Of a stretch of DNA of 52,754 nucleotides, positions 22,034-33,800 are shown piece by piece. The translations under genes and the position numbers were made by a program. Position 1 is the first letter of the stretch. Each line of letters opens with the position of its first letter. Below the pieces are notes generated by a model. The model ran no database searches. It had not been told where the DNA came from and saw only the letters and a program-made list of their open reading frames with translations. The stretch is from positions 1 to 52,754 of IMG/VR virus record IMGVR_UViG_3300020450_000032. One strand, 5' to 3'. This DNA comes from a virus.

Positions 22034-22425
22034 TATACTCTTTCTAGTATTAAATTAAGAGATTGTGGATCTAGTGGTATGCCTATAATCCTATAAAATA
22101 TTGTTATATCCAAAGAATTTCCATCAATATCATCAATTACGTCAACATCTAGTAATTTTATCCTTGGTTCATATGCTGTTAAGGCATCTTCTATAGCAAT
22201 TCTTATATCATCTGCTGTTGCCATGCTAAAATTCTCAAATAAAGACCCAACAACAGTGCTTCCGAAGTATGGACGAAACGCTCTATCACCCCTAGTGGTC
22301 AAAACGATGTTTTTTACTGCAAATTTGATCGCTTCAGCGTTCTTCAGCAGTGGTAAATCCGAAGTAATAGGATTTTTCTCAAAATTGGGGTTTAAATCGA
22401 CGAATTTTTTCGAGACAGTCGCCAT
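22033..22425 (-). CDS. 25: Baseplate wedge protein gp25 (130 aa)
   Basis: A 130-residue gp25-like protein. Key parts are the N-terminal DLNPNFEKNP segment, FAVKNIVLTTRGDRAFRPYFG, SLFENFSM, and the signature YEPRI followed by a DV...SLDITIFYRI strand. The E-P-R triplet is the family hallmark. gp25 sits in the inner baseplate and starts sheath polymerisation; the same fold occurs in R-type pyocins and type VI secretion. It is followed immediately by gp6. An A-rich stretch AAAGGTAAA lies before the start and can act as a ribosome site. Its likely promoter is the late box near 22594. Confidence 0.95.
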   Translation of the reverse strand: MATVSKKFVDLNPNFEKNPITSDLPLLKNAEAIKFAVKNIVLTTRGDRAFRPYFGSTVVGSLFENFSMATADDIRIAIEDALTAYEPRIKLLDVDVIDDIDGNSLDITIFYRIIGIPLDPQSLNLILERV

Positions 22426-22854: not shown

Positions 22855-22993
22855 GGTGAGGAGGGAGGTAGGATTCCTGTGTACCTACAAAAGACGGGCA
22901 TTTCTACAGTTAGAAATACGTCTTTGCATAAGACCCGTTTGGTAAAACGATTCTGTTGTTCCCAACAGCGAGCACCACCTCTGTCTTATCACC
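22855..22993 (-). ncRNA. Candidate structured RNA or 5' leader upstream of the 50-aa gene
   Basis: A GC-richer, gene-free segment folding into several stems. Listed by plus-strand position: outer pair GGTGA (22855-22859) with TCACC (22989-22993); 7-bp ATAAGAC (22928-22934) with GTCTTAT (22983-22989); hairpin CTGTTG/CAACAG (22953-22968) which on the minus strand closes a GGAA (GNRA-type) tetraloop; hairpin CGTTT/AAACG (22936-22949); and a long stem AAAGACG...ATTTCTA with TAGAAAT...CGTCTTT (22890-22925, 14 bp, one 3/1 internal loop). A further GTAGG/CCTAC pair closes 22868-22888. It lies between two minus-strand genes. The GNRA loop favours minus-strand RNA. No known riboswitch or tRNA was recognised. 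Confidence 0.55.
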
Positions 22994-23030
22994 TTAACTA
23001 GCAAAATGCCAGTAAGTTTATTCAGTCACT

Positions 23031-23056
23031 CCCGTGTTGAGCGATCAACTCAACAA
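23031..23056 (-). terminator. Stem-loop after the 2OG oxygenase gene
   Basis: An inverted repeat TGTTGAG/CTCAACA lies 10-30 bases past the oxygenase stop. No U tract follows on the minus strand, so it is a weak terminator or an RNA end-protecting hairpin. It marks the boundary between the operon and the folded segment. Confidence 0.4.
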
Positions 23057-25335: not shown

Positions 25336-25361
25336 AAAAAAGGGGGTGTTATTCCCCTTTT
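25336..25361 (-). terminator. Intrinsic terminator with stop codon in the loop
   Basis: The minus strand reads AAAAGGGG, a loop holding the TAA stop of the 88-aa gene, CCCCTTTT and further T residues. Strong rho-independent terminator that ends the early region before the late PAAR operon. Confidence 0.8.
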
Positions 25362-25615
25362 CCGATTTCTGCGATTAGTTCCCCCATTTCGGTTAGATTT
25401 GCTTCGCCCCAGTCGGCACCGTCAGGTGTAAAGAAAGAACCGATCATCGCCTGCATTTCGTAAAGAAATTCGTTGTAAGTTTCGCACTCCTTAGCGATTG
25501 AGTTATAGCACTGGTCGTTGTTGATCCATAGTGCTACATTCCAAGTTGTCCAATCTGACCAACCGTTATACTGTGTTGGTGTGTCTGAGAAATTGAAACT
25601 TGTTTGTGCGATCAT
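25349..25615 (-). CDS. Hypothetical early protein (88 aa)
   Basis: Start at ATG 25615 because AAGGAG lies 8-13 bases upstream. The protein begins MIAQTSFNFSDTPTQYNGWS and contains DWTTWNVALWINNDQ, a Trp-rich segment found in several small phage proteins, followed by YNEFLYEMQAMIGSFFTPDG and an acidic C-terminus. It has its own -10 box (25647-25652) and an intrinsic terminator whose loop holds the stop codon. The leader is a near copy of that of the next gene (23 of 24 bases), marking a regulatory cassette. Function unknown. Confidence 0.65.
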   Translation of the reverse strand: MIAQTSFNFSDTPTQYNGWSDWTTWNVALWINNDQCYNSIAKECETYNEFLYEMQAMIGSFFTPDGADWGEANLTEMGELIAEIGKGE

Positions 25616-25635
25616 TTGGATTTGCTCCTTTGTTT
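25612..25635 (-). repeat. Leader repeat copy 1 (SD-ATG module)
   Basis: A 24-base block that spans the Shine-Dalgarno and ATG of the 88-aa gene. It is identical at 23 of 24 positions to 25878-25901 in front of the 61-aa gene. Duplicate leader modules point to cassette exchange. Confidence 0.75.
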
Positions 25636-25646
25636 GGTATATACTT

Positions 25647-25652
25647 ATTATA
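25647..25652 (-). promoter_or_regulatory. -10 box for the 88-aa early gene
   Basis: Minus strand TGCTATAATA: an extended -10 (TG-n-TATAAT) 32 bases before the ATG, directly after the stem-loop of the preceding gene. No good -35 is seen. Confidence 0.6.
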
Positions 25653-25658
25653 GCATAA

Positions 25659-25679
25659 GGGGGGCATATGCAACCCCCC
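25659..25679 (-). terminator. G/C stem-loop after the 61-aa basic gene
   Basis: GGGGGG and CCCCCC separated by nine bases, just past the stop of the 61-aa gene and just before the next -10 box. Only two U residues follow, so termination may be partial. Confidence 0.5.
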
Positions 25680-25695
25680 AAATGTTAAGAAAGTG

Positions 25696-25881
25696 TTAAA
25701 TGCAACTCTTTCCTTTTGTTGCCCATAACGCAAGACGCATAGTAGATGCCTTGTAAACCGCTTCGGCAGATCTGCCAGTAGCACGTGCCGCTCTCTGTAG
25801 AGTTTTACGGTTTGCTTTCTCTCTTTTAACTGTTGGGACTAATACGTCTCTCGCAGTTTGGAAGATGTCTTTTTGAGTCAT
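25696..25881 (-). CDS. Small basic early protein (61 aa)
   Basis: Start at ATG 25881, preceded by AGGAG; the longer frame would place coding sequence in the promoter. The protein is rich in Arg, Lys and Ala: MTQKDIFQTARDVLVPTVKR, EKANRKTLQRAARATGRSAE, AVYKASTMRLALWATKGKSC. The central part could form two helices of a helix-turn-helix type, so DNA or RNA binding is possible, but no family was recognised. It carries its own TATAAT box (25914-25919) and is followed by a GGGGGG/CCCCCC stem-loop. Confidence 0.6.
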   Translation of the reverse strand: MTQKDIFQTARDVLVPTVKREKANRKTLQRAARATGRSAEAVYKASTMRLALWATKGKSCI

Positions 25882-25901
25882 TTGGATTTGCTCCTGTGTT
25901 T
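25878..25901 (-). repeat. Leader repeat copy 2 (SD-ATG module)
   Basis: Second copy of the 24-base SD-ATG block, in front of the 61-aa gene; one mismatch to the copy at 25612-25635. Confidence 0.75.
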
Positions 25902-25913
25902 GTTTATACTTCA

Positions 25914-25919
25914 ATTATA
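25914..25919 (-). promoter_or_regulatory. -10 box for the 61-aa early gene
   Basis: Minus strand CACTATAATTG; TATAAT 33 bases before the ATG at 25881. It lies right after a GGGGT/ACCCC stem-loop. Confidence 0.55.
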
Positions 25920-25948
25920 GTGGGTGGGGGTGCTGTATGCAACCCCTA

Positions 25949-25971
25949 GTGGACAGTTTGTTAACTGTCAC
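25949..25971 (-). repeat. Stop-codon palindrome, copy 1
   Basis: GACAGTT and AACTGTC arms separated by four bases; overlaps the stop codon of the acidic 62-aa gene. First of eight related copies in 25.9-33.7 kb. Confidence 0.75.
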
Positions 25972-26149
25972 ATCCGAGGATTTCTTCCATGTAGATTTCT
26001 GTCATTGACTTTTCAAAATCAATATCCGCTAGGATGTCTCTCTCTTCGGTTTCATATAGATCCTCTATATAAAAATCTTCGGTATCTAGATCCTGCTCTA
26101 TTTCGATTAGTTCAGATTCTAGAGGCAGTGTTTCAAGTTTTGAAGTCAT
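25961..26149 (-). CDS. Very acidic small early protein (62 aa)
   Basis: A 62-residue protein with 22 Asp/Glu and only three Lys/Arg (net about -19): MTSKLETLPLESELIEIEQD, LDTEDFYIEDLYETEERDIL, ADIDFEKSMTEIYMEEILGC. An AAGGAG site lies just before the ATG. The last residues (GCDS and stop) are encoded by the 22-nt palindrome. Size and charge resemble DNA-mimic inhibitors of host nucleases or nucleoid proteins, but no specific family is visible, so this is inference only. Confidence 0.65.
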   Translation of the reverse strand: MTSKLETLPLESELIEIEQDLDTEDFYIEDLYETEERDILADIDFEKSMTEIYMEEILGCDS

Positions 26150-26188
26150 AGTGCTCCTTGTTTGTTTGATTTAATCTTAATGCATAGG

Positions 26189-26208
26189 GGGGACTATATC
26201 AAGTCCCC
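26189..26208 (-). terminator. Stem-loop after the 42-aa gene
   Basis: Perfect 7-bp stem GGGGACT/AGTCCCC with a six-base loop, just past the palindrome that ends the 42-aa gene. No U tract, so it may stabilise mRNA ends rather than terminate. Confidence 0.5.
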
Positions 26209-26210
26209 AT

Positions 26211-26232
26211 GTGCCACTTTGTCTACTGGCAC
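26211..26232 (-). repeat. Stop-codon palindrome, copy 2
   Basis: GTGCCA and TGGCAC arms; holds the TAG stop of the 42-aa gene. Same size and end bases as the other copies. Confidence 0.65.
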
Positions 26233-26351
26233 TGTTCCTCAAATCGTTTGTTTGCTATCTCGATTTGTTTCTCTTCGTCGTAGTATGGGAACGCTTCCTG
26301 CACTTCGTCGAATATTTGAAGTAGTAAATCTTCATGATGTAGAGTTGACAT
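26223..26351 (-). CDS. Small early protein (42 aa)
   Basis: A 42-residue protein, MSTLHHEDLLLQIFDEVQEA then FPYYDEEKQIEIANKRFEEQ and CQ. It has a strong AAGGAG site 7-12 bases before the ATG and a TATAAT box at 26380-26385. Mostly helical and acidic with a Phe-Pro-Tyr-Tyr centre. The stop TAG lies inside the 22-nt palindrome. It resembles short conserved proteins of marine T4-like phages, function unknown. Confidence 0.6.
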   Translation of the reverse strand: MSTLHHEDLLLQIFDEVQEAFPYYDEEKQIEIANKRFEEQCQ

Positions 26352-26379
26352 TTTTGTCTCCTTAGTTGCTTATGTCTTT

Positions 26380-26385
26380 ATTATA
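26380..26385 (-). promoter_or_regulatory. -10 box for the 42-aa gene
   Basis: TATAAT on the minus strand 29 bases before the ATG; lies directly after the terminator of the upstream 46-aa gene. Confidence 0.55.
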
Positions 26386-26391
26386 ATAGAA

Positions 26392-26411
26392 AACCCCCAG
26401 TGATGGGGGTT
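26392..26411 (-). terminator. Intrinsic terminator after the 46-aa membrane protein
   Basis: Seven-bp stem AACCCCC/GGGGGTT with a six-base loop followed by T residues on the minus strand. It lies between the stop-codon palindrome (26416-26437) and the next -10 box. Confidence 0.65.
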
Positions 26412-26415
26412 GTAT

Positions 26416-26437
26416 GTGACACTATTTGGACTGGCAC
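26416..26437 (-). repeat. Stop-codon palindrome, copy 3
   Basis: GTGACA and TGGCAC ends, weaker pairing than copy 1; contains the TAG of the 46-aa membrane protein gene. Confidence 0.6.
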
Positions 26438-26562
26438 AGTGTGGGGTCGATTTTACAAATTTGAGCGTTTCTTTCGTTTGTAACTTCGGTTATATTCTTA
26501 ATTGCTGTAGATCCTAAGACGTAGGCACATAGAATAGTAATTAGAATTAGAGCGTATCTCAT
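26422..26562 (-). CDS. Small single-pass membrane or secreted protein (46 aa)
   Basis: A 46-residue protein with an N-terminal hydrophobic segment (RYALILITILCAYVLGSTA, residues 2-20) after a single positive residue, followed by a polar tail ending in KIDPTLCQSK. This is a signal-anchor or short membrane protein. Its ATG lies 2 bases after the upstream stop, so it is probably translated by coupling. The stop TAG overlaps the 22-nt palindrome and a perfect 7-bp CCCCC/GGGGG terminator follows. A role in the host envelope (lysis timing, superinfection exclusion) is possible but not shown. Confidence 0.55.
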   Translation of the reverse strand: MRYALILITILCAYVLGSTAIKNITEVTNERNAQICKIDPTLCQSK

Positions 26563-26564
26563 AA

Positions 26565-26741
26565 TTAATGTCTGTCTGAGATGTACCATGTACCGTTGTT
26601 TGGTGTTGGTCTATCCTTAAAATCCCTTAGTGCCATTTCGTCAAGTACTGCTATTAGCACTGGGTCATTTGCTGCCTTGTCATTCATTAATACTCTACCT
26701 TGATAGTAGGGTTTTAAGTTGTCGTCGAACATAGTAGTCAT
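26565..26741 (-). CDS. Hypothetical early protein (58 aa)
   Basis: Start placed at ATG 26741 (MTTMFDDNLKPYYQGRVLMN); the upstream ATG at 26759 would fall on the expected transcription start of the TATAAT box at 26766-26771. The protein continues with DKAANDPVLIAVLDEMALRD and ends with NNGTWYISDRH. It resembles small conserved phage proteins of unknown role. It is coupled to the 46-aa membrane protein two bases downstream. Confidence 0.6.
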   Translation of the reverse strand: MTTMFDDNLKPYYQGRVLMNDKAANDPVLIAVLDEMALRDFKDRPTPNNGTWYISDRH

Positions 26742-26765
26742 AATGCTGTTTTGTTTCATACCTTT

Positions 26766-26771
26766 ATTATA
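26766..26771 (-). promoter_or_regulatory. -10 box for the 58-aa gene
   Basis: Minus strand CCCCTATAATAAAG. The predicted transcription start is near 26759, which argues against the ATG there and for the one at 26741. Confidence 0.55.
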
Positions 26772-26799
26772 GGGGATAAATTGGTGCTGTGTGGGTGTG

Positions 26800-26964
26800 T
26801 TAATAATTCTTAACAATTCGGTTTGCTAGTCGTCGTTGATATCGGATCACTTTTTTGTGGATCCGTTGTTTGATTGCTCTAATAAACCCTAGCGTATAGT
26901 CAAGTACTAGGGTTAGAACATACAACGTTAGCAGATATAGTACAAGTGTACTAAGCGACTTCAT
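26800..26964 (-). CDS. Small membrane protein with basic tail (54 aa)
   Basis: A 54-residue protein with one strongly hydrophobic segment at residues 5-30 (STLVLYLLTLYVLTLVLDYT) followed by a basic amphipathic tail (IKQRIHKKVIRYQRRLANRI). Topology: short N-terminus, one membrane helix, positively charged cytoplasmic tail. Its ATG lies within the last codons of the 202-aa gene (14-base overlap), so expression is coupled. Inside the gene is an 8-bp inverted repeat, AACCCTAG/CTAGGGTT (26885-26914). Function unknown. Confidence 0.6.
   Translation of the reverse strand: MKSLSTLVLYLLTLYVLTLVLDYTLGFIRAIKQRIHKKVIRYQRRLANRIVKNY
26938..26953 (-). repeat. Perfect 7-bp inverted repeat at the end of the 202-aa gene
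   Basis: TAGTACA and TGTACTA separated by two bases. It contains the TAG stop of the 202-aa gene but has a different sequence from the GTGnCAGTT family. Confidence 0.5.
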
Positions 26965-27559
26965 GAACTCGCCTCCAACATACCCACGTTATTGCTTGAA
27001 CTTGATTAGGAGAATAGTCAGTCCCTTCTGTATCATTGATCACATCAGTTGCTTCCTTGTATGCTTTGGTGATTTCTGCATATAGTTTGTCTGATATGTT
27101 AGGGACTTGATTAAGTGGGGTGTATGCTCCATTCCAAATATTAAATGCATGCCCATCAACTGTAATTTCATCACATTTTCCATTAGTAGCAATACCTCTA
27201 TAGAATGCAATTGTCTTGTTACCCCTAAGTAATGTTTTAATATTTTTGGGGTTGTCGTATTGATTCTCTAATATAGTAATTGCTTTATCCTTTTGCCCTC
27301 CAAAGGTACATACCTTAGGATACTCTATATCGTAACAATATGCTCTAATCATATTCTCAGCATCTATCAAGTTACGATCCCATTTGTTGTTTGGTGATAG
27401 AGCAGAAACAACTCCTACAACTGTGTCAAGTGGGATATTATATTCTTCAGATAATACCTTGCACATTGAGTATCCTTTAGAATACCATATCTCACCTTCT
27501 ATTTTATCTTGAGCATTAGATTGAAAGTAAGTTGAGAGAATGTTCTTTGTTAAAGTCAT
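26951..27559 (-). CDS. Conserved phage protein, possible HhH-glycosylase-like fold (202 aa)
   Basis: A 202-residue protein. Conserved-looking pieces are VVGVVSALSPNNKWDRNLID (about residues 46-65), CTFGGQKDKAITILE, LLRGNKTIAFYRGI and EITVDGHAFNIWNGAY (about residues 128-143). The S-A-L-S-P-x-x-x-W-x-RN start and the V-D-x-H-A motif late in the protein recall the layout of helix-hairpin-helix DNA glycosylases (V-D-x-H aspartate region), but no clear HhH loop is seen, so the link is weak. The family occurs in many phages and bacteria as an uncharacterised protein. It has its own promoter and a 9-bp hairpin upstream. Confidence 0.65.
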   Translation of the reverse strand: MTLTKNILSTYFQSNAQDKIEGEIWYSKGYSMCKVLSEEYNIPLDTVVGVVSALSPNNKWDRNLIDAENMIRAYCYDIEYPKVCTFGGQKDKAITILENQYDNPKNIKTLLRGNKTIAFYRGIATNGKCDEITVDGHAFNIWNGAYTPLNQVPNISDKLYAEITKAYKEATDVINDTEGTDYSPNQVQAITWVCWRRVHEVA

Positions 27560-27591
27560 GTTTGCTTTAATTGCTTAATAATATAATAACA

Positions 27592-27615
27592 GTACTAGCG
27601 AGTTAACGCTAGTAC
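27592..27615 (-). terminator. Perfect 9-bp hairpin before the 202-aa gene
   Basis: GTACTAGCG and CGCTAGTAC with a six-base loop, between the end of the Api92-like gene and the promoter of the 202-aa gene. It adjoins the GTACATATGATACATT element. T residues follow on the minus strand (TGTTATTATATT), so it can act as a terminator. Confidence 0.55.
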
Positions 27616-27627
27616 ATATGATACATT
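27612..27627 (-). repeat. GTACATATGATACATT element, copy 1
   Basis: A 16-base element at the 3' end of the Api92-like gene; it reaches its stop codon. Identical copies lie at 28466 and 30202. Confidence 0.75.
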
Positions 27628-28064
27628 TACAGGTAACCTGCAACTTCCATTCCTGGTTCATCAAAGAACCATGAAACACTTAAATCATCATTCTCATATT
27701 TGTCTCTTATTGCATATCTGATATTTTCGGGGGGAGACCATGCAGTATCAAATGTTACAGTGAAACTATTATCACCCTCTTCGTCAATATCTACTTCGTA
27801 GCAGTCCCACTTAGTTCCCCAGTTTTCAAGTCGCCAGTTATACCATCTGTCATCAGTTGTACCATCTGGAAACTTAGGGGGGAATAGGTCATTAAGTGGA
27901 TCTTTTTTACTGAATTCGCCCGCTTCGTTTGGTGTTGTCTTCCAATCTGGTTCGGGAACGAAATTAGTGAATACATTTTCCATTTTGAAAATGTCGAGTA
28001 ACTCTTTAATTACTGTTTCTTTATCACAATAAAATGATACTCGATTGTGGCAATGATTAGGCAT
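27627..28064 (-). CDS. Api92-like/DUF1281 ferredoxin-fold protein (145 aa)
   Basis: The start MPNHCHNRVSFYCDKETVIK is typical of the Api92/YubB (DUF1281) group, usually M-P-N-W/H-C-x-N-x-V. The second diagnostic block is RWYNWRLENWGTKWDCYEVD (about residues 73-92), followed by FTVTFDTAWSPPENIRYAI: the NWGTKWD and F-x-TAWSPP motifs. These proteins have a ferredoxin-like domain, are found on plasmids and phages, and their biochemical role is not established. A good promoter is visible (TTGACT, 17 bases, TACAAT; 28092-28120). The stop codon overlaps the end of a GTACATATGATACATT element. Confidence 0.8.
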   Translation of the reverse strand: MPNHCHNRVSFYCDKETVIKELLDIFKMENVFTNFVPEPDWKTTPNEAGEFSKKDPLNDLFPPKFPDGTTDDRWYNWRLENWGTKWDCYEVDIDEEGDNSFTVTFDTAWSPPENIRYAIRDKYENDDLSVSWFFDEPGMEVAGYL

Positions 28065-28091
28065 AAATCTTTTGATGTATGTTATATTTGT

Positions 28092-28120
28092 ATTGTATTA
28101 GAAATAATGATGATAGTCAA
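28092..28120 (-). promoter_or_regulatory. Sigma-70-type promoter for the Api92-like gene
   Basis: Minus strand TTGACT, 17 bases, TACAAT, ending 28 bases before the ATG at 28064. The only early promoter here with a convincing -35. Confidence 0.55.
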
Positions 28121-28128
28121 CATTACTT

Positions 28129-28150
28129 GTGCCAGTTTGTGAATTGTCAC
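28129..28150 (-). repeat. Stop-codon palindrome, copy 4
   Basis: GTGCCAGTT and AATTGTCAC arms around four bases; contains the TGA of the zinc-ribbon gene. Confidence 0.7.
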
Positions 28151-28410
28151 TCCCACCCCCTCTTTTGTAGTTTACCTTGTCTGTCATGGTAATCTCCTAA
28201 TATGAATACTTCAAAGTCATACTTATTTGTTGACTTCTTACAATACTCACATTCTAATGATGACCAACTAAAATGAAATACTCTTAAGCATTCATCACAG
28301 TGTGGACAAATAATTAATCGTCCATTCTTACCTGATCTAGTATAAGAATTGACTTTAGGGAACGTTAGGGGGGATCTCCCATAATCCAATCTGCAAAGTG
28401 TGTGATTCAT
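28147..28410 (-). CDS. Zinc-ribbon-like small protein (87 aa)
   Basis: An 87-residue protein with two Cys pairs: CPHCDEC (about residues 35-41) and CEYC (about residues 54-57), with an RVFHFSWSSLE link between them, followed by NKYDFEVFILGD. Two CxxC knuckles about 16 residues apart make a zinc ribbon. Such proteins are common in T4-like marine phages and likely bind nucleic acid or RNA polymerase, an inference. A TATAAT box lies at 28437-28442. The stop lies in a 22-nt palindrome. Confidence 0.65.
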   Translation of the reverse strand: MNHTLCRLDYGRSPLTFPKVNSYTRSGKNGRLIICPHCDECLRVFHFSWSSLECEYCKKSTNKYDFEVFILGDYHDRQGKLQKRGWE

Positions 28411-28436
28411 TTGTGAAAACTTTAATTGCTAATAAT

Positions 28437-28442
28437 ATTATA
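28437..28442 (-). promoter_or_regulatory. -10 box for the zinc-ribbon gene
   Basis: TATAAT on the minus strand 27 bases before the ATG. The leader TATTATTAGCAATTAAAG is close to that of the 202-aa gene. Confidence 0.5.
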
Positions 28443-28444
28443 AA

Positions 28445-28469
28445 GTACCACACGGTATTTGTGTAGTAC
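28445..28469 (-). terminator. Hairpin after the 91-aa gene
   Basis: GTACcACAC and GTGTaGTAC form a nine-position stem with one mismatch. Same position and outer GTAC as the hairpin at 27592, and also adjoins a GTACATATGATACATT copy. Confidence 0.5.
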
Positions 28470-28481
28470 ATATGATACATT
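28466..28481 (-). repeat. GTACATATGATACATT element, copy 2
   Basis: Identical 16-base element overlapping the stop codon of the 91-aa helical protein. Confidence 0.75.
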
Positions 28482-28755
28482 ACTCAGTATCAGGAATTCG
28501 TCTCTCCTCTATTGGTTTCTTGAATTTACATTTAGTATAATCTTTAATATCATTAACAACATCATTAAAATGATCCTTCCAGTAATTCTCTGCTCTATCC
28601 ATAAACTCTACCTCTGGTAAATCATTAAATAGATCCATATACATATCAAATGCAATTTGTAACAATTGATGTCTATCAAAACTATCTGTTATTCTATCTG
28701 CCAAATGGTACTTTAATTCATCTAATTCAAGTTTTGTAAGTTTTTGGTCAGTCAT
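28480..28755 (-). CDS. Hypothetical helical early protein (91 aa)
   Basis: Start placed at ATG 28755 (MTDQKLTKLELDELKYHLAD); the ATG at 28770 is only about 7 bases from the expected transcription start of the TATAAT box at 28784-28789. The protein is mostly helical and charged: RITDSFDRHQLLQIAFDMYM, DLFNDLPEVEFMDRAENYWK, then a basic end. No domain recognised; it may bind another protein. The stop overlaps the last bases of a GTACATATGATACATT element. Confidence 0.6.
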   Translation of the reverse strand: MTDQKLTKLELDELKYHLADRITDSFDRHQLLQIAFDMYMDLFNDLPEVEFMDRAENYWKDHFNDVVNDIKDYTKCKFKKPIEERRIPDTE

Positions 28756-28783
28756 GATACTTTTGTTCATTTTGCTTACTTTT

Positions 28784-28789
28784 ATTATA
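28784..28789 (-). promoter_or_regulatory. -10 box for the 91-aa gene
   Basis: TATAAT on the minus strand, directly after the terminator of the GTRSRIG gene; favours the ATG at 28755 over that at 28770. Confidence 0.55.
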
Positions 28790-28793
28790 AATG

Positions 28794-28820
28794 AAAAAAA
28801 GGGGTATGTCTACCCCTTTT
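28794..28820 (-). terminator. Intrinsic terminator after the GTRSRIG gene
   Basis: Perfect 10-bp stem AAAAGGGGTA/TACCCCTTTT with a four-base loop, followed by T residues on the minus strand. Confidence 0.85.
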
Positions 28821-28842
28821 GTGACAGTTATGCAACTGCCAC
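28821..28842 (-). repeat. Stop-codon palindrome, copy 5
   Basis: GTGACAGTT and AACTGCCAC arms around four bases; encodes the last codons and the TAA stop of the GTRSRIG protein. Confidence 0.75.
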
Positions 28843-29268
28843 ATCTTCCTCAGGAATTGTACGAGGTTCGACTATAGTGCCAGTAACGTTGTACTCTTCA
28901 TCATACTTTTTGTTTATCTCAAAGCATAACCATTCATGGTCTAGTGTGAATATGTAACAATATTCCTCCCATGAATTAGCGTTGTTGAAATACTCATCAA
29001 ATGAAGAGTTAAGACGAGGTGGGCAATCTTCCCCTCTCTCCTTATAATAACATGGTTGTGGATCTCTTTTGTCTTCATAATCCCAACCCGTGTCTGAATA
29101 GCAAGAGGACATGTCTCCTCCATCTATTAATTTAGCGATAGCATCTCTGGTGTTGTAGTGCTGTTTAAGGATTCTACCTAACCACTCAGGATATCCATCC
29201 CAATGGTGATAAACAGAAAGTACATTTCCATTTGCTAGTTCTAGTCCAATACGTGATCTAGTTCCCAA
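28828..29268 (-). CDS. GTRSRIG-family conserved phage protein, TTG start (146 aa)
   Basis: The start codon is TTG at 29268, supported by AGGAG seven bases upstream and no nearer ATG. The N-terminus is (M)GTRSRIGLELANGNVLSVYH, then HWDGYPEWLGRILKQHYNTR. The GTRS-x-IG and YHHWDGYP motifs define a family widespread in tailed phages of many hosts; no function is known. The middle is acidic with Cys-rich spots (MSSCYSDTGW, QPCYYKERGEDCPP) and there is a beta C-terminus (FTLDHEWLCFEIN). The gene has a 90-base structured leader with a small upstream ORF. The stop overlaps a 22-nt palindrome followed by a strong terminator. Confidence 0.75.
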   Translation of the reverse strand: MGTRSRIGLELANGNVLSVYHHWDGYPEWLGRILKQHYNTRDAIAKLIDGGDMSSCYSDTGWDYEDKRDPQPCYYKERGEDCPPRLNSSFDEYFNNANSWEEYCYIFTLDHEWLCFEINKKYDEEYNVTGTIVEPRTIPEEDVAVA

Positions 29269-29372
29269 AATTAATCTCCTAGTAAATGTTTAATAGGGGT
29301 GGACTTACAGGACGTAATTTCTCTGCTGAACAAAGACAACCATAGATCCTTGCCCCCTATACATCTATTATA
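29269..29372 (-). promoter_or_regulatory. Promoter and structured leader of the GTRSRIG gene, with a 12-codon upstream ORF
   Basis: TATAAT lies at 29367-29372; the expected transcript begins near 29360. The first bases ATAGGGG (29360-29354) can pair with CCCCTAT (29299-29293), enclosing 54 bases. Inside is a short ORF from ATG 29343 to TAA 29305 (MVVFVQQRNYVL) with AAGGA four bases before it. The real gene starts at TTG 29268 after AGGAG, beyond the stem. Confidence 0.45.
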
Positions 29373-29402
29373 CTGCATCAATGATGTTATTCAATAGATG
29401 TT

Positions 29403-29424
29403 GTGCCAGTTTGTCAACTGGACT
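29403..29424 (-). repeat. Stop-codon palindrome, copy 6
   Basis: GTGCCAGTT and AACTGGAC arms; overlaps the TAG of the 60-aa gene. The right end has diverged from the consensus. Confidence 0.65.
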
Positions 29425-29605
29425 ACTCCCATGAGTAGTCGCTAGGTTCTGGTTCGGATATCTTCTCACACAGTGAGTCGTATGCATCCTGAGTAGATTC
29501 ATCAATCCAACCCATATCATTAAAGAACATCATCATTTGAACGATTACTTCCTCTTCGTCCATAGTCATGTCTAGATGTCTGATTTCTTTTACATCATTT
29601 GTCAT
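29423..29605 (-). CDS. Hypothetical acidic early protein (60 aa)
   Basis: A 60-residue acidic helical protein: MTNDVKEIRHLDMTMDEEEV, then a methionine-rich helix IVQMMMFFNDMGWIDE and a C-terminal EKISEPEPSDYSWE. Its ATG lies within the end of the upstream gene (11-base overlap). The stop sits in the right end of a 22-nt palindrome. Similar small proteins occur in marine T4-like phages but no function is known. Confidence 0.55.
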   Translation of the reverse strand: MTNDVKEIRHLDMTMDEEEVIVQMMMFFNDMGWIDESTQDAYDSLCEKISEPEPSDYSWE

Positions 29606-29831
29606 TTGTGAGTCCCTCGATGAATGATTGTTTTACTAACTGAACCTTGTTAACATCTTGTAGAAAAGAATTAACATGTTTTGTAGTGGTCTTAGAATAG
29701 AACTGCTCAGTTTTGAAATAACCTTCATCAGGTAAATAACCTGCAACTGGTGTCTCATAACTGAATAGTACTTGTGCACCGTTGTTGAAACTAACCAAAG
29801 ATTGATTGTTTCCGATCTGTTTTAAATTCAT
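29595..29831 (-). CDS. Conserved early phage protein (DUF8033-like, 78 aa)
   Basis: A 78-residue protein: MNLKQIGNNQSLVSFNNGAQ, then VLFSYETPVAGYLPDEGYFK and EQFYSKTTTKHVNSFLQDVN. The order S-F-NNG-x-VLFSY-x-TPVA followed by F-x-TTTKHVN resembles the small DUF8033-type family of phage proteins. The TATAAT box at 29855-29860 precedes it. It overlaps the next gene by 11 bases. Role unknown; match is from memory and moderately certain. Confidence 0.6.
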   Translation of the reverse strand: MNLKQIGNNQSLVSFNNGAQVLFSYETPVAGYLPDEGYFKTEQFYSKTTTKHVNSFLQDVNKVQLVKQSFIEGLTNDK

Positions 29832-29854
29832 GTGATTTGAATGTTTACTCTTCT

Positions 29855-29860
29855 ATTATA
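29855..29860 (-). promoter_or_regulatory. -10 box for the DUF8033-like gene
   Basis: TATAAT on the minus strand 24 bases before the ATG, directly after the terminator of the 76-aa gene. Confidence 0.55.
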
Positions 29861-29862
29861 CA

Positions 29863-29888
29863 ATAAAAAAAGGGACTGTAAAGTCCCC
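29863..29888 (-). terminator. Intrinsic terminator after the 76-aa gene
   Basis: Stem GGGACT/AGTCCC with a four-base loop and a run of seven T residues on the minus strand. Confidence 0.8.
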
Positions 29889-29890
29889 GT

Positions 29891-29912
29891 GTGACACTAA
29901 TCCAACTGTCAC
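29891..29912 (-). repeat. Stop-codon palindrome, copy 7
   Basis: GTGACACTA and AACTGTCAC arms; last base overlaps the TAG of the 76-aa gene. Confidence 0.65.
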
Positions 29913-30142
29913 TATGCTGTCTGTTGCTTCAGTGCACCTCTCTTACGAGCAAGAGCAATAAATTTACCAACTGACTCACCTCTAGTTGCTGTGACATCCA
30001 AGTCAGCAACTAATTCACTTTCAGTAATATCAAAGCGATACGCCTTGTCCCTGTTAGTGGTGTATGTAATGTCCATAGTGTTGTCGTCGTTGACTGTAAT
30101 AGGTGATACTACAGCACTTGACTTTTCAAATGAGATTTGCAT
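29912..30142 (-). CDS. Hypothetical early protein (76 aa)
   Basis: Start placed at ATG 30142 (MQISFEKSSAVVSPITVNDD); a TTG six bases upstream is less likely. The protein has three strands in sequence (AVVSPITV, TMDITYTTN, AYRFDITESE) and a helical basic C-terminus (VGKFIALARKRGALKQQ). A TATAAT box lies at 30169-30174. The stop TAG overlaps the 22-nt palindrome and is followed by a strong terminator. Family not recognised; a small alpha-beta domain is likely. Confidence 0.55.
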   Translation of the reverse strand: MQISFEKSSAVVSPITVNDDNTMDITYTTNRDKAYRFDITESELVADLDVTATRGESVGKFIALARKRGALKQQTA

Positions 30143-30168
30143 AATCAATCATTGTAACGTTTGTCTCT

Positions 30169-30174
30169 ATTATA
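30169..30174 (-). promoter_or_regulatory. -10 box for the 76-aa gene
   Basis: TATAAT on the minus strand 27 bases before the ATG at 30142. Confidence 0.55.
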
Positions 30175-30201
30175 ATAACACAACTGCATATAGGTGTCAA
30201 C

Positions 30202-30217
30202 GTACATATGATACATT
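30202..30217 (-). repeat. GTACATATGATACATT element, copy 3
   Basis: Identical 16-base element, ten bases past the stop of the 133-aa gene. Confidence 0.75.
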
Positions 30218-30226
30218 AAGTTGTAA

Positions 30227-30628
30227 TTATCTTGATGGTCTTTTCTCTATGTCTATGGTATTATTATTGTATAACTTATCAGTATATTTCATCCATCCAA
30301 TCTCACCAACTTCAGTATGTCCCCTATCGTTATAATTAGCACCACGTATCTCTCCTTTATCATTGTGGTTCTCACCTCTAATTATCCCTCTACCATATGA
30401 AGGTTTTGGTTTGAATATAAAATCTTGACACAATTTCTCAAATGTCTCCACTTTCACTATTTTTACAAAGTTTGAATTATATCTCCTCTGGTCAGAAACT
30501 AACCTTCTCCATATTTTATACACTAATTTATAAGAATGGTAGGGACTGACATTTTCTTCAACAAAGTACCTTTTTGCAGGATTCCACAGCTTTAGGTGAT
30601 TTCCTTCAAGTTTTAGAATATAGTACAT
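30227..30628 (-). CDS. Hypothetical basic protein (133 aa)
   Basis: A 133-residue basic protein: MYYILKLEGNHLKLWNPAKR, then WRRLVSDQRRYNSNFVKIVK, and a C-terminal Gly/Asn-rich low-complexity part with repeated R-G-E-NHNDKGEIRG-ANYNDRGH units (about residues 83-103). The repeat looks like a short tandem duplication of a decapeptide. The ATG is preceded by GGAGGGTTTTAGTAAAA, which contains a possible ribosome site. Function unknown. The 283-base gap upstream holds the candidate origin-like element. Confidence 0.5.
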   Translation of the reverse strand: MYYILKLEGNHLKLWNPAKRYFVEENVSPYHSYKLVYKIWRRLVSDQRRYNSNFVKIVKVETFEKLCQDFIFKPKPSYGRGIIRGENHNDKGEIRGANYNDRGHTEVGEIGWMKYTDKLYNNNTIDIEKRPSR

Positions 30629-30911
30629 TTTTACTAAAACCCTCCACTTTCGTTATTATTTAGAGAAACCCGCACTTTCTCACAGAACTGTCGTTTTCCA
30701 CAGGTTCTATCAGTTTTCCACAATTTCACAGTTTCCTGTGGAAAACACCATTGTCAAGTACATTTGATACATTTGGCAGTATCTGAGAAACCTTGACAGA
30801 TGGGTGCTTACGTGCTAAGACAACAATAAAATCATAGATTTAACAAAGTTTCTAAAACCCATACTAATATTTAATTTAACCTTTTTAAATAATAGTACAT
30901 TTGTACGGAAA
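30629..30911. other. Gene-free gap with DnaA-box-like sites and AT-rich stretch
   Basis: No ORF of use on either strand. It holds TTTTCCACA at 30694-30702 and 30714-30722 and its reverse TGTGGAAAA at 30737-30745. The last two form a 10-bp inverted repeat with flanking G/C. A degenerate GTACAT(T)TGATACATT copy is at 30758-30773. An AT-rich tract follows (about 30861-30898). This could be an origin-like element, an operator, or an mRNA hairpin of the 133-aa gene leader. Confidence 0.45.
30758..30773 (-). repeat. GTACATATGATACATT element, degenerate copy 4
   Basis: One mismatch to the other three copies. It is not next to a gene end; it may mark a lost or decayed cassette in this gap. Confidence 0.55.
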
Positions 30912-31103
30912 TCAAGATAGATCCCTCTCTTCTACCCATACATCCCTATGAGGTTGTCTTCCTCCTGACTGCATCTCTAACCAATCAAACATGTGTTGTA
31001 GTTCTTCTACTCTACGTTCCGCTTCCCATCTCTCAGTATATAATTCATCAAGATTGGGAGTTCTCTCTCCTCGTCTGAATAATACAGCATACTTTGTTGT
31101 CAC
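30912..31103 (-). CDS. Hypothetical early protein, GTG start (63 aa)
   Basis: The start codon is GTG at 31103, preceded by GGAGG ten bases upstream. The protein begins (M)TTKYAVLFRRGERTPNLDEL, then YTERWEAERRVEELQHMFDW, and ends with RQPHRDVWVEERDLS. It is a charged helical protein with a KYAVLFRRGE strand that resembles the first strand of several small phage proteins. It is the last gene of the nine-gene operon. Family not recognised. Confidence 0.6.
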   Translation of the reverse strand: MTTKYAVLFRRGERTPNLDELYTERWEAERRVEELQHMFDWLEMQSGGRQPHRDVWVEERDLS

Positions 31104-31110
31104 TGGGTTC

Positions 31111-31335
31111 TTACCTCCAAAATGTTCTCTTTAGTATAGCATTCCCATTCTTTATTTGGTATTCATATGTGACACCCTTGCTACTGGTCGCTATTATTGC
31201 TTGACCTTGTACAATAGCAGTTTCAATATTTGAACCAAACGTCTGTATTATACCAGTCCTAGCAGACGAGCGAAGTTGTGCACGTCCATTTTGGACAGTA
31301 ACATAGTATGATGGTGTTTCGTTAGGATGGGACAT
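31111..31335 (-). CDS. Hypothetical early protein (74 aa)
   Basis: Start at ATG 31335 (MSHPNETPSYYVTVQNGRAQ), inside the upstream gene's last codons (14-base overlap). It continues with LRSSARTGIIQTFGSNIETA and a C-terminal strand-rich part (IIATSSKGVTYEYQIKNGNA). It has two YxVxxxNGxAxL-type strands (YYVTVQNGRAQL, YEYQIKNGNAIL), an internal repeat. It sits in the middle of the overlapping operon. Function unknown. Confidence 0.55.
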   Translation of the reverse strand: MSHPNETPSYYVTVQNGRAQLRSSARTGIIQTFGSNIETAIVQGQAIIATSSKGVTYEYQIKNGNAILKRTFWR

Positions 31336-31585
31336 AATAGCAGAATCCTTCTTGTACAAAATAATTACAATACTTCTCCATCTCAGGATATCTCGTTTTA
31401 TGGTAGTCAGCATCTAATAACGTCTGACATACTATCTCATGATATTTAGGGTCGATTAAACCATCTAATAACTGTTGGACACATTCATCCAATTGAGTCA
31501 AATATTGAGATGACTCTGATACATGAGAGATCTTGTTCGTAGATACAAACTCCATATCTGGATCCATCGAGTTGTATTGTGACAT
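31322..31585 (-). CDS. Hypothetical early protein (87 aa), long overlap with next gene upstream
   Basis: The longest sensible start is ATG 31585 (MSQYNSMDPDMEFVSTNKIS). That gives a 101-base overlap with the upstream gene, which is unusual. A TTG start near LDECVQQLLDGL would remove nearly all the overlap. The C-terminal part (LLDGLIDPKYHEIVCQTLLD, then TRYPEMEKYCNYFVQEGFCY) looks like a compact helical protein with conserved aromatic and Cys residues. Which start is used cannot be told from sequence alone. Confidence 0.5.
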   Translation of the reverse strand: MSQYNSMDPDMEFVSTNKISHVSESSQYLTQLDECVQQLLDGLIDPKYHEIVCQTLLDADYHKTRYPEMEKYCNYFVQEGFCYYVPS

Positions 31586-31760
31586 GTGAGGGGAAGGTTT
31601 TGTTGTGTGTTTTGACTTTAATAGCATCTGTAAAAAAAACTACTGTGCCGAGTGTACGACCCTCGTATAACACTCGTGTACCAACTTTAAGATCCTTCAA
31701 TCTTTTGGGGATTACCCATTTGGGTGAGGGTGGATTCGAGGAGTTGATAGAGGACTCCAT
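31485..31760 (-). CDS. SH3-like small early protein (91 aa)
   Basis: The core (about residues 22-70) is beta-rich: LKDLKVGTRVLYEGRTLGTV, VFFTDAIKVKTHNKTFPSHV, TIQLDGSRYGVCIYEQDL. The G-x-RVLYEGR-x-G-TV opening resembles SH3-like/KOW folds. The N-terminal 21 residues (MESSINSSNPPSPKWVIPKR) overlap the upstream gene by 74 bases and may not be translated; a TTG at LKDLKVG is an alternative start. The reading frame itself is well supported by its regular beta pattern. Function unknown. Confidence 0.55.
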   Translation of the reverse strand: MESSINSSNPPSPKWVIPKRLKDLKVGTRVLYEGRTLGTVVFFTDAIKVKTHNKTFPSHVTIQLDGSRYGVCIYEQDLSCIRVISIFDSIG

Positions 31761-31896
31761 CTACTGAATGTTCGACATGTTTATACTCTAGTAGTTCTTT
31801 GTTGATTAGGGTTGATACTAGTTTTGCTTGTTCACGTGATAAATTATACATTTCTTTAATACTGTTCGGCATCTGAACTATCTGGGTGATCGTCAT
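31687..31896 (-). CDS. Hypothetical early protein (69 aa)
   Basis: A helical protein: MTITQIVQMPNSIKEMYNLS, then REQAKLVSTLINKELLEYKH and a C-terminal VDGVLYQLLESTLTQMG. The ATG at 31872 (MPNSIKEMY) is an alternative start that shortens the overlap with the upstream 58-aa gene from 41 to 17 bases. It ends inside the SH3-like gene. No domain recognised. Confidence 0.5.
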   Translation of the reverse strand: MTITQIVQMPNSIKEMYNLSREQAKLVSTLINKELLEYKHVEHSVDGVLYQLLESTLTQMGNPQKIEGS

Positions 31897-32032
31897 AGAG
31901 CATGTCTTCGTAATCTAAACTATCCTCAAAATGATCGCCAGGAAATGGTGTTACTACCTTACTCCAGTACTCAGCATCTGCTTTGAGTTCCTTCCTAAGG
32001 TCGTCATATGATATATTGGTATAAGAGTCCAT
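31856..32032 (-). CDS. Acidic early protein (58 aa)
   Basis: A 58-residue acidic protein: MDSYTNISYDDLRKELKADA, then EYWSKVVTPFPGDHFEDSLD and YEDMLYDDHPDSSDAEQY. The ATG lies 20 bases after the stop of the 64-aa gene. The last third is nearly all acidic, a tail that might bind a basic partner. It overlaps the next gene by 41 bases if that gene uses its first ATG. Function unknown. Confidence 0.6.
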   Translation of the reverse strand: MDSYTNISYDDLRKELKADAEYWSKVVTPFPGDHFEDSLDYEDMLYDDHPDSSDAEQY

Positions 32033-32051
32033 TGTAGGATGTGATAGTTGA

Positions 32052-32246
32052 TTATACGTCCATAAACCCTAATCCTGTTTGATTAGGTTCTGAACGCTCG
32101 TTTCTTAGTTGTGTTAACCTTGATTTAAGTTTCCTTAATTCGTCGGTATCATACAATTGAGGTTTCTTTAATGCCTCTTTAAGATACGTCATCTCTTGAC
32201 GAGGGTTATACAAATGAATTTTGTCAGGTCTGAGTTTCATGTTCAT
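32052..32246 (-). CDS. Hypothetical early protein (64 aa)
   Basis: A 64-residue basic helical protein: MNMKLRPDKIHLYNPRQEMT, YLKEALKKPQLYDTDELRKL, KSRLTQLRNERSEPNQTGLG. Two amphipathic helices with Lys/Arg suggest a nucleic-acid or protein binding role, unproven. Its ATG overlaps the upstream stop as ATGA; a second ATG (MKLRPDK) six bases on is equally possible. Confidence 0.6.
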   Translation of the reverse strand: MNMKLRPDKIHLYNPRQEMTYLKEALKKPQLYDTDELRKLKSRLTQLRNERSEPNQTGLGFMDV

Positions 32247-32407
32247 ATGTCACATTCGTAATTGTAGGAACGTCTAGTTCTGTAATATGCTTCCTCTATT
32301 TTATTATAGAGTTCACTTACATCAGTATCTAATGTGCACTCTGTCTCTCTTGTAAGGGAGTTGAGTCCTGTTAGAAGTGCTAGAAGTTCGTGTTCATTCA
32401 ATCTCAT
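32243..32407 (-). CDS. Hypothetical early protein (54 aa)
   Basis: Start at ATG 32407 (MRLNEHELLALLTGLNSLTR), inside the end of the upstream gene (14-base overlap); the longer frame would run through that whole gene. It continues ETECTLDTDVSELYNKIEEA and ends YYRTRRSYNYECDI. The LLALLTGLNSL-x-R-ETECTLDTD pattern resembles short conserved proteins of marine T4-like phages. All-helical; function unknown. Confidence 0.6.
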   Translation of the reverse strand: MRLNEHELLALLTGLNSLTRETECTLDTDVSELYNKIEEAYYRTRRSYNYECDI

Positions 32408-32564
32408 TGACTTGACCCACATCATGGAACTCTTCAAGATAGTAATCGACAGTAACCTCAAGTTCTGATGCTAATGCCTCTATCCTATCAGCAAAAGCAT
32501 ATGCAAATGCTGTTAATTCATCCTCATCTGGATTGCAGAAAAGGTCTAATGATGATTCACTCAT
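32394..32564 (-). CDS. Acidic early protein, first gene of nine-gene operon (56 aa)
   Basis: A 56-residue acidic helical protein: MSESSLDLFCNPDEDELTAF, then AYAFADRIEALASELEVTVD and YYLEEFHDVGQVNEIE. A clear GGAG site precedes the ATG by 5 bases. It begins a run of nine overlapping genes to 30912. A perfect 7-bp inverted repeat (ATGGTTG/CAACCAT, 32605-32619) lies upstream, as a possible operator or terminator of the nuclease gene. Confidence 0.62.
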   Translation of the reverse strand: MSESSLDLFCNPDEDELTAFAYAFADRIEALASELEVTVDYYLEEFHDVGQVNEIE

Positions 32565-32604
32565 GGTGTCTCCAGTTGATGTGTTTATTCTACCATACTA
32601 TAAG

Positions 32605-32619
32605 ATGGTTGGCAACCAT
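32605..32619 (-). repeat. Inverted repeat between endonuclease VII gene and next operon
   Basis: ATGGTTG and CAACCAT separated by one base, between the end of the nuclease gene and the promoter region of the nine-gene operon. Near-perfect symmetry with one central base suits a protein-binding operator; no U tract. Confidence 0.4.
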
Positions 32620-32634
32620 GCTATATTTAGTTGT

Positions 32635-33090
32635 TTACTTACTTAAATACTTGATTGCTCTTGACAATTCTGTGACATTATCACCTAATAGACCTAATCC
32701 TGTGTTGCATTTCTTACATAACCAACCACGAAAATCTCCTGTTTCATGGCAATGATCCAACTGCCATACAAATGCTCCGTCTATGCCCTCTGGAATCGTC
32801 TCCTTGGACGCATAAACTGGTTTACAACACAATTCACATGGTGTGCCATATGGTGGTGCTTTCATGCCTTTAAACTTCTTCCGTATGGCACTACGTTCTG
32901 CTGCCTTCACTTTAGTGCAAGCATAGCAATTAGTATTCACTCTCTTACGTTTACCAGTCCATGGATGCTCTAAACCCTTGTTATAGAACTGATTTAAGTA
33001 ATACGGAAATTCAGTATTTGGTTTCGTAACAAAACAGATGGAGCATTTGCATACCCCATCTGGAATGTTATATAAATTTCTTGATCTCAT
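32635..33090 (-). CDS. 49: Endonuclease VII-like HNH nuclease (151 aa)
   Basis: The C-terminal half holds the recombination endonuclease VII signature: WQLDHCHETGDFRGWLCKKC, then NTGLGLLGDNVTELSRAIKY. The D-H-C-H core gives the active-site His and metal site; the flanking CELCCKPV and CKKC pairs form the structural zinc site expected for the T4 gp49 family (157 aa). The N-terminal part has another Cys set (CKCSICFVTKPNTEFPYYL and CYACTKVK), an added knuckle. T4 gp49 resolves Holliday junctions and branched DNA before packaging; homologues near other phage genes may act as homing-type nickases. It begins immediately after the stop of the 155-aa gene. Confidence 0.85.
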   Translation of the reverse strand: MRSRNLYNIPDGVCKCSICFVTKPNTEFPYYLNQFYNKGLEHPWTGKRKRVNTNCYACTKVKAAERSAIRKKFKGMKAPPYGTPCELCCKPVYASKETIPEGIDGAFVWQLDHCHETGDFRGWLCKKCNTGLGLLGDNVTELSRAIKYLSK

Positions 33091-33558
33091 TTACCTCATA
33101 TAAAGATAACCACCTGCCCAGTCACATTTGTTCTGAAGCAATGCTCTGTCTCTGATCAATCTAAGATCGTAACGAACATGCTTGGCAGGACCTCTCCATG
33201 AAGCAGGTTTGTATACTTGACCAGTTTTCTTGTCAACAAATGCATGTACACTTGTCTGATGTCTGGTGTTGTCTGAATTGACTGGTGACTGCATCATGAT
33301 CTTGAAGTACTTACGACCACTCTCAACAAAGAATCTGTTTGATGGAAGGAAACTATCAGACATAACATCTTCTAATTTCTTTTGGTAGTAACCTTGCTCC
33401 CATGAATCATCTTCTGCTTCTGCTAGACCTCTCTTGACATATCTGATGTCATTCTGCTTCATGTCTTCTTGTAACCATGAACATAAATCGAGAGTCCATT
33501 GCTCAATGTTTTGTGCAAGAACGTCAAGTGCTTGTTGTTGTTCAATAGTTGTTGTCAT
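33091..33558 (-). CDS. Conserved phage protein (155 aa)
   Basis: A 155-residue protein. The C-terminal third has VHAFVDKKTGQVYKPASWRG, PAKHVRYDLRLIRDRALLQN and CDWAGGYLYMR, a block recognised in many marine T4-like phages (FVDK-TGDVYKPASW...DWAGGYLY). The N-terminal part is helical with a Trp-rich segment (QWTLDLCSWLQEDM). A TATAAT box (33585-33590) and AAAGG before ATG support the start. Function unknown. It runs directly into the endonuclease gene, suggesting joint expression. Confidence 0.7.
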   Translation of the reverse strand: MTTTIEQQQALDVLAQNIEQWTLDLCSWLQEDMKQNDIRYVKRGLAEAEDDSWEQGYYQKKLEDVMSDSFLPSNRFFVESGRKYFKIMMQSPVNSDNTRHQTSVHAFVDKKTGQVYKPASWRGPAKHVRYDLRLIRDRALLQNKCDWAGGYLYMR

Positions 33559-33584
33559 GATTAATACCTTTGTTGTATGTACTT

Positions 33585-33590
33585 ATTATA
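33585..33590 (-). promoter_or_regulatory. -10 box for the 155-aa gene and endonuclease
   Basis: TATAAT on the minus strand 27 bases before the ATG at 33558; the AAAGG ribosome site lies between. Confidence 0.55.
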
Positions 33591-33621
33591 GTAGTATAAT
33601 AGGTGCTAGTCAATGTAGTAT

Positions 33622-33643
33622 GTGACAGTTATTCAACTGTCCT
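33622..33643 (-). repeat. Stop-codon palindrome, copy 8
   Basis: GTGACAGTT and AACTGTC arms around four bases; contains the TGA of the 55-aa gene. Confidence 0.7.
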
Positions 33644-33800
33644 TCTTCTCTAAATGTGTCTCTAAAGTTGCAAGTATCCGACCTGCTTGACGATTCAAAA
33701 AATCTAATCCTTTACCATTATTCTGTTTCATAAGAAATACATCAAATGCTTCTTCAATTAATTCAAATTGGTCTGTTGTAAGTGTTTTTGGTGTTGTCAT
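33633..33800 (-). CDS. Hypothetical early protein (55 aa)
   Basis: A 55-residue helical protein: MTTPKTLTTDQFELIEEAFD, VFLMKQNNGKGLDFLNRQAG, RILATLETHLEKKDS. The ATG overlaps the stop of the coiled-coil gene as ATGA. The stop TGA sits inside a 22-nt palindrome of the same family found at the ends of other genes here. The regular helix pattern supports it as real. Function unknown. Confidence 0.6.
   Translation of the reverse strand: MTTPKTLTTDQFELIEEAFDVFLMKQNNGKGLDFLNRQAGRILATLETHLEKKDS

Follow-up and report, generated by a model that had tools for sequence, protein, structure and literature searches.

Closest described systems

This analysis concerns a 22-bp imperfect palindrome, GTGnCAGTT-n4-AACTGnCAC, eight copies of which lie in a 52.8-kb fragment of a phage genome (52,754 nucleotides; IMG/VR record IMGVR_UViG_3300020450_000032; hereafter the window). 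That the copies are operators of phage promoters is, in our judgement, close to certain, and we consider it probable that these promoters are early ones whose operators serve a host activator, most likely PlmA. The nearest described relative is CGRE1, found at the yfr2 promoters of marine picocyanobacteria. According to PMC6778093, the GntR-family protein PMM1637 binds CGRE1-bearing yfr2 promoters and mediates Yfr2 induction; the work on CGRE1 is credited there to Lambrecht et al. (2018, DNA Res.). PMM1637 is PlmA, which is also a member of the PII-PipX complex (PMC6243067).

The phage palindrome shares its left arm, GTGACAGTT, and its presumed hosts with the operator at the yfr2 (Cyano-1) promoters, the likeness being to the sequences of these promoters. 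The placement is similar as well, since the host operator ends 33-44 nt before the RNA and the predicted phage transcription start lies about 42 nt past the palindrome. The phage copies, however, have two good arms and stand at many protein genes, whereas the host copies are mostly one-armed and stand at a single small RNA (sRNA) family.

Doron et al. (2016) reportedly found a novel element that controls the early genes of T4-like cyanophages (Syn9, P-TIM40). Both phages belong to the group treated here and carry the present module in their small-gene block, and the palindrome is likely to be the same element. The PeSL cassettes of T4-type phages likewise have a stem-loop beside an early promoter and are repeated between small genes. 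A comparison with these cassettes had been drawn in the original prediction, and it holds for that layout but not in detail: in the window an operator lies upstream, and the stem-loop, clear in five of the eight copies and missing in three, is nested between operator and -10 box. The Ogr/delta-type sites at P2/P4 late promoters are dyad-symmetric activator sites centred near -55 with a weak or absent -35 box; the protein family, the phages and the sequence are different, and the likeness is an analogy only. The element itself has probably been described already, as CGRE1 and as the Syn9 early element, so that the gain lies in the explicit link and the geometry and not in a new system. Even the link between PlmA and the phage palindrome, drawn here from sequence, may have been published before.

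Palindromes at a fixed distance from a -10 box

A pattern scan that allowed up to three mismatches gave exactly eight matches in the window, all within 25950-33643, against a mean of 0.28 and a maximum of 3 in 100 dinucleotide shuffles. The eight palindromes of the original prediction are thus real, although "near-identical" was generous: all lie within three mismatches, but only the copy at 28821 is perfect, and those at 26416 and 29403 have three. In all eight copies a TATAAT-like box begins 30-31 nt past the last base of the palindrome on the minus strand, which is also the strand of the surrounding genes. When the operator was required together with a TATAAT box 29-32 nt on, one mismatch in the box being allowed, seven sites were found in the window; shuffles of that region gave 0.03 on average. 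The copy that fails (26211) has the box TAAGAT. A chance repeat was rejected on the strength of these two scans. The copies, with the open reading frame (ORF) that each is predicted to drive, are as follows.

25950..25971, minus strand: operator copy 1, GTGACAGTTAACAAACTGTCCA; -10 box TATAAT at 25914-25919, with a terminator-like hairpin at 25927-25946 in between; ORF 25696-25914
26211..26232, minus strand: operator copy 2, GTGCCAGTAGACAAAGTGGCAC; weak -10 box TAAGAT at 26174-26179, hairpin at about 26188-26208; ORF 25961-26149
26416..26437, minus strand: operator copy 3, GTGCCAGTCCAAATAGTGTCAC; -10 box TATAAT at 26380-26385, hairpin at about 26392-26411; ORF 26223-26351
28129..28150, minus strand: operator copy 4, GTGACAATTCACAAACTGGCAC; -10 box TACAAT at 28092-28097, TTGACT 17 nt ahead of it, no strong hairpin; ORF 27627-28064
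28821..28842, minus strand: operator copy 5, GTGGCAGTTGCATAACTGTCAC, the perfect consensus; -10 box TATAAT at 28784-28789, terminator hairpin and T run at 28797-28820; ORF 28480-28770
29403..29424, minus strand: operator copy 6, AGTCCAGTTGACAAACTGGCAC; -10 box TATAAT at 29367-29372, -35-like TTGAAT; ORF 28828-29268, by way of a leader of about 90 nt
29891..29912, minus strand: operator copy 7, GTGACAGTTGGATTAGTGTCAC, an identical 22-mer being present in P-TIM40; -10 box TATAAT at 29855-29860, terminator hairpin at about 29872-29888; ORF 29595-29831
33622..33643, minus strand: operator copy 8, AGGACAGTTGAATAACTGTCAC; -10 box TATAAT at 33585-33590, -35-like TTGACT, no strong hairpin; ORF 33091-33558

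The second hairpin, between palindrome and -10 box, is clear at 25950, 26211, 26416, 28821 and 29891, where it resembles a normal terminator for the gene before it. It is weak or absent at 28129, 29403 and 33622, and there a TTGA-type -35-like hexamer is present; the predicted fold at 29403 includes the -10 box itself.

An exact-pattern scan of IMG/VR returned at least 120 stretches, in which the conservation of the fixed bases is partly by construction, the loci having been fetched by the palindrome. Among the matches listed, 80 deduplicated sites that had not been selected for a -10 box display a sharp TATAAT peak at offsets of 29-32 nt; their offset-30 subset contains no conserved -35 hexamer. 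A larger, deduplicated set of 200 viral sites had been selected for the outer arms and for a -10 box 29-32 nt away, and the small standard deviation of its -10 offset (0.71) follows from that choice. Since the -10 box lies at 30-31 nt, transcription is predicted to start about 42 nt past the palindrome. With the usual distance between -10 box and start, the palindrome would cover about -64 to -43 and be centred some 53 bp upstream of the start. This is a usual place for an activator dimer.

The palindrome and the stop codons

Every palindrome in the window is overlapped by the stop codon of a minus-strand ORF, as the original prediction stated. The stops lie at +8, +7, +13, +1, +12, -1, -2 and +8 from the first base of copies 1 to 8, and all three frames are used. 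Since the reading frame differs between copies, the ORF tails differ too (CDS*, CQ*, CQSK*, E*, VAVA*, E*, A* and DS*, respectively), and the idea that different ORFs end in the same tail had to be dropped.

Outside the window the consensus was found in related phages, but its position relative to the stop codon is not fixed. An upstream ORF of at least 60 aa ends nearby at 124 of the 200 viral sites; 44 of the stops fall inside the palindrome, 46 precede it and 34 follow it. The stop positions have a standard deviation of 26.9 nt and span more than 100 nt, the first lying 60 nt upstream and the last past the -10 box. In five modules of P-SSM2 the upstream gene continues across the entire palindrome, its stop lying inside the -10 box (offset 54). 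This scatter and the P-SSM2 modules rule out a stop-codon element, and with the host copies ahead of non-coding RNA genes they refute the stop codon as an extra conserved part of the cassette.

Among 112 homologs that the window genes have in other phages, 48 carry the operator 50-95 nt ahead of the start and 15 carry it at the 3' end. The corresponding counts are 18 and 8 among 26 homologs of ORF 28828-29268, and 9 and 1 among 11 homologs of ORF 29595-29831. Judged from these positions, the palindrome belongs to the gene that follows and not to the one that precedes it. The overlap with stop codons is incidental: genes are packed so tightly that the intergenic gaps are only about as long as a promoter.

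Distribution in cyanophages and genomic setting

With up to three mismatches the palindrome has 8 matches in Syn9, 15 in P-SSM2, 6 in P-TIM40, 9 in S-PM2, 9 in P-HM2, 7 in P-SSM4, 9 in S-RSM4 and 4 in S-SM2, against 0-2 matches of the reversed control pattern in the same isolates. One match, with three mismatches, was found in the pelagiphage HTVC008M and none in T4, Ma-LMM01 or P-SSP7. According to published gene models, the modules of Syn9, P-TIM40, P-HM2, P-SSM4 and P-SSM2 lie largely in a small-gene block that ends at gp25-gp6. Their -10 box is mostly at 30-31 nt, and the next start codon usually follows 57-70 nt downstream; the -10 boxes of Syn9 are poorer. The window palindromes occupy the same setting, beside gp25-gp6 and in a gene order as in T4-like cyanophages, from which we infer that the block is transcribed early.

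25349..33800, minus strand: small-gene block served by the promoters; putative early, host-takeover genes, mostly of unknown families (DUF7178, DUF7717, DUF7326, phrog_1987)
20189..22425, minus strand: baseplate wedge genes gp25 (22033-22425) and gp6 (20189-22033), bordering the small-gene block as in P-SSM2, P-HM2 and P-SSM4
Beyond gp6: ORF of 3240 aa in the position of gp7, assigned by position only
8976-10436: another baseplate wedge protein

Between gp25 and an endonuclease V gene lies a strong manA RNA (RF01745, 185.7 bits; 22858-23055, minus strand), a cis-regulatory RNA known from cyanophages. The minus-strand ORF 24260-24784 matches PHROG 23903 ("toxin", host-takeover category) and has a relative in P-HM2.

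A sub-family of nine IMG/VR loci with the operator shares the context ctagtGTGCCAGTT...AACTGTCACaagg...ggttgacc, followed by cataatgtataaata. In these loci the operator precedes what appear to be overlapping early and late (TATAAATA) promoter boxes.

A related operator in cyanobacterial hosts

The exact pattern was found in 113 stretches of 257 billion bases of bacterial genomes, where we estimate that about 60 were to be expected. A large excess falls in Nostocales cyanobacteria: the extracted matches include 42 from a single conserved locus, in which the palindrome is followed about 32 nt on by TATTCT and by a conserved, terminator-bearing stretch that resembles an sRNA (GCAAGGAGTGATACC ... 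AGCGCTTGAG ... CTCAAGCGCTTTTT). The sRNA-like transcript would be about 190 nt long, with its own terminator, and stands behind the same operator in about 40 loci (e.g. L198, 2201-2450, and L167, 3357-3600, both plus strand); eight of these loci were scanned against Rfam without a match.

In six other cyanobacteria with larger genomes the palindrome, within one mismatch, precedes the Cyano-1 RNA (RF01701) at a similar distance. Cyano-1 corresponds to the Yfr2 sRNA family, judging by its GGAAACA loop motifs. The 48 distinct Cyano-1 promoters of 37 small cyanobacterial genomes include 36 with at least 11 of the 16 operator bases and with the operator end 33-44 nt before the RNA, whereas 0.27 were expected from shuffles that preserve base composition only. 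The commonest form in the small genomes is GTGACAGTT with a weak second arm; since mostly one arm is retained, a search of picocyanobacterial genomes for near-exact palindromes returned almost nothing. A single GntR-domain protein was found in one of the small cyanobacterial genomes, and no GntR domain is encoded in the 52.8-kb window. Judged by eye only, neither an NtcA box (GTA-N8-TAC) nor a CRP-type site (TGTGA-N6-TCACA) fits the consensus.

A probable host activator at phage promoters and its alternatives

Published binding concerns the yfr2 promoters only; from the shared operator we predict PlmA, with high probability, as the protein that would bind the phage palindromes. A host activator, most likely PlmA (PMM1637 in Prochlorococcus MED4), would bind the 22-bp operator, which is centred about 53 bp before the start of an early promoter, in dimeric form and immediately before the -35 region. 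It would thereby bring the polymerase of the host to the TATAAT box that begins 30-31 nt further on. The small takeover genes would then be transcribed upon entry of the phage DNA. Several copies have the preceding gene's terminator nested between operator and -10 box, with gene, terminator and promoter overlapping so tightly that the preceding stop falls in or near the operator. Activation is likelier than repression, judged from the operator position and the published induction of Yfr2.

T4-like cyanophages are very abundant ocean viruses, and the proposal names, from sequence alone, a probable host factor for their early transcription. It predicts that the GntR protein of the host binds to many promoters of the phages and activates them. 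It also shows how a stop codon, a terminator and an operator can share a stretch of about 60 bp. The higher symmetry of the phage operators, compared with those of the host itself, suggests tighter binding. More speculatively, and we would sooner bet against it than for it, the phage operators may be near-ideal for PlmA and stronger than the host Yfr2 sites. The phage would then recruit PlmA for its takeover genes and titrate it off Yfr2, tying early transcription to the nitrogen/carbon and redox signals of the host PII-PipX-PlmA system.

The possibility that the palindrome folds into an RNA hairpin and acts at the 3' end of the mRNA (in stability, processing or stop-codon function) draws on the stop codons at all eight window copies and on the folding of the good copies as RNA, several of them folding well when the next stem-loop is included (z down to -6.3). 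Among the 200 viral sites, however, G or C predominates at arm position 7 and C or G at position 16, and the two are Watson-Crick in 88 sites versus 101.9 in shuffled columns, i.e. without covariation. The inner pairs 8-15 and 9-14 equally resemble shuffled columns, with no compensatory changes; the offset controls of this test, deduplicated by a looser rule, are not directly comparable with the 200 sites. That positions 7 and 16 are unpaired as often as they are fits a protein that tolerates either base and does not fit an RNA hairpin. This lack of covariation led us to reject the hairpin and, with the scattered stops, the fixed spacing to the -10 box and the host copies ahead of RNA genes, leaves the "mRNA-end hairpin" once suggested for these repeats extremely improbable. 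The "protein site" suggested beside it is favoured by the same spacing, the same lack of covariation and the same operator at host sRNA promoters. Near-identical repeats between small, variable genes, in a PeSL-like layout, would also suit recombination seams for the exchange of early-gene cassettes. Yet promoter geometry already accounts for their conservation and the same operator stands at single-copy host RNA genes, so that seams are improbable as the function, though exchange could occur as a side effect.

Several points weigh against a host activator. The early timing is based on synteny with isolates, and picocyanobacterial sites mostly have one strong arm (GTGACAGTT) and a weak second one, whereas the phage sites are two-armed and more symmetric, as expected for a separate partner. 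Since the window covers just part of the genome, a GntR gene or another regulator may lie elsewhere in the phage. A phage-encoded regulator, injected or made early, whose operator converged on or descended from the host GntR site, is nevertheless unlikely: the window holds no GntR domain, left arm and distance equal those of the host sites, and early genes have to be transcribed at a time when most proteins of the phage are still to be made. GntR-family proteins are often, indeed mostly, repressors. A host GntR protein that delays or tunes these genes by repression is less likely still, because a site upstream of the core promoter (about -43 to -64) suits activation and because Yfr2 induction is mediated by the GntR protein, according to PMC6778093. 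Early promoters with operators for a host activator, most likely PlmA, are the reading that we prefer.

Other repeated and conserved elements

A second motif, ATGTATCATATGTAC, occurs on the minus strand at 27612-27626, 28466-28480, 30202-30216 and 30758-30772 (three exact copies, one with a single mismatch). Three copies directly follow a TAA stop, and the motif stands ahead of promoter-like boxes of other genes; it is possibly another operator. As a second operator class it has 86 viral matches, about the chance level by our estimate, and in a few IMG/VR loci (four) it lies 23-28 nt before TATAAT.

Just past the promoter of copy 6, a 54-nt stretch (29301-29354, minus strand) without a match in Rfam recurs in P-SSM2, P-SSM5 and single-cell marine viruses with 87-98% identity, between flanks that differ. 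In these relatives it lies within non-coding leaders or gaps, and it looks like a conserved RNA element.

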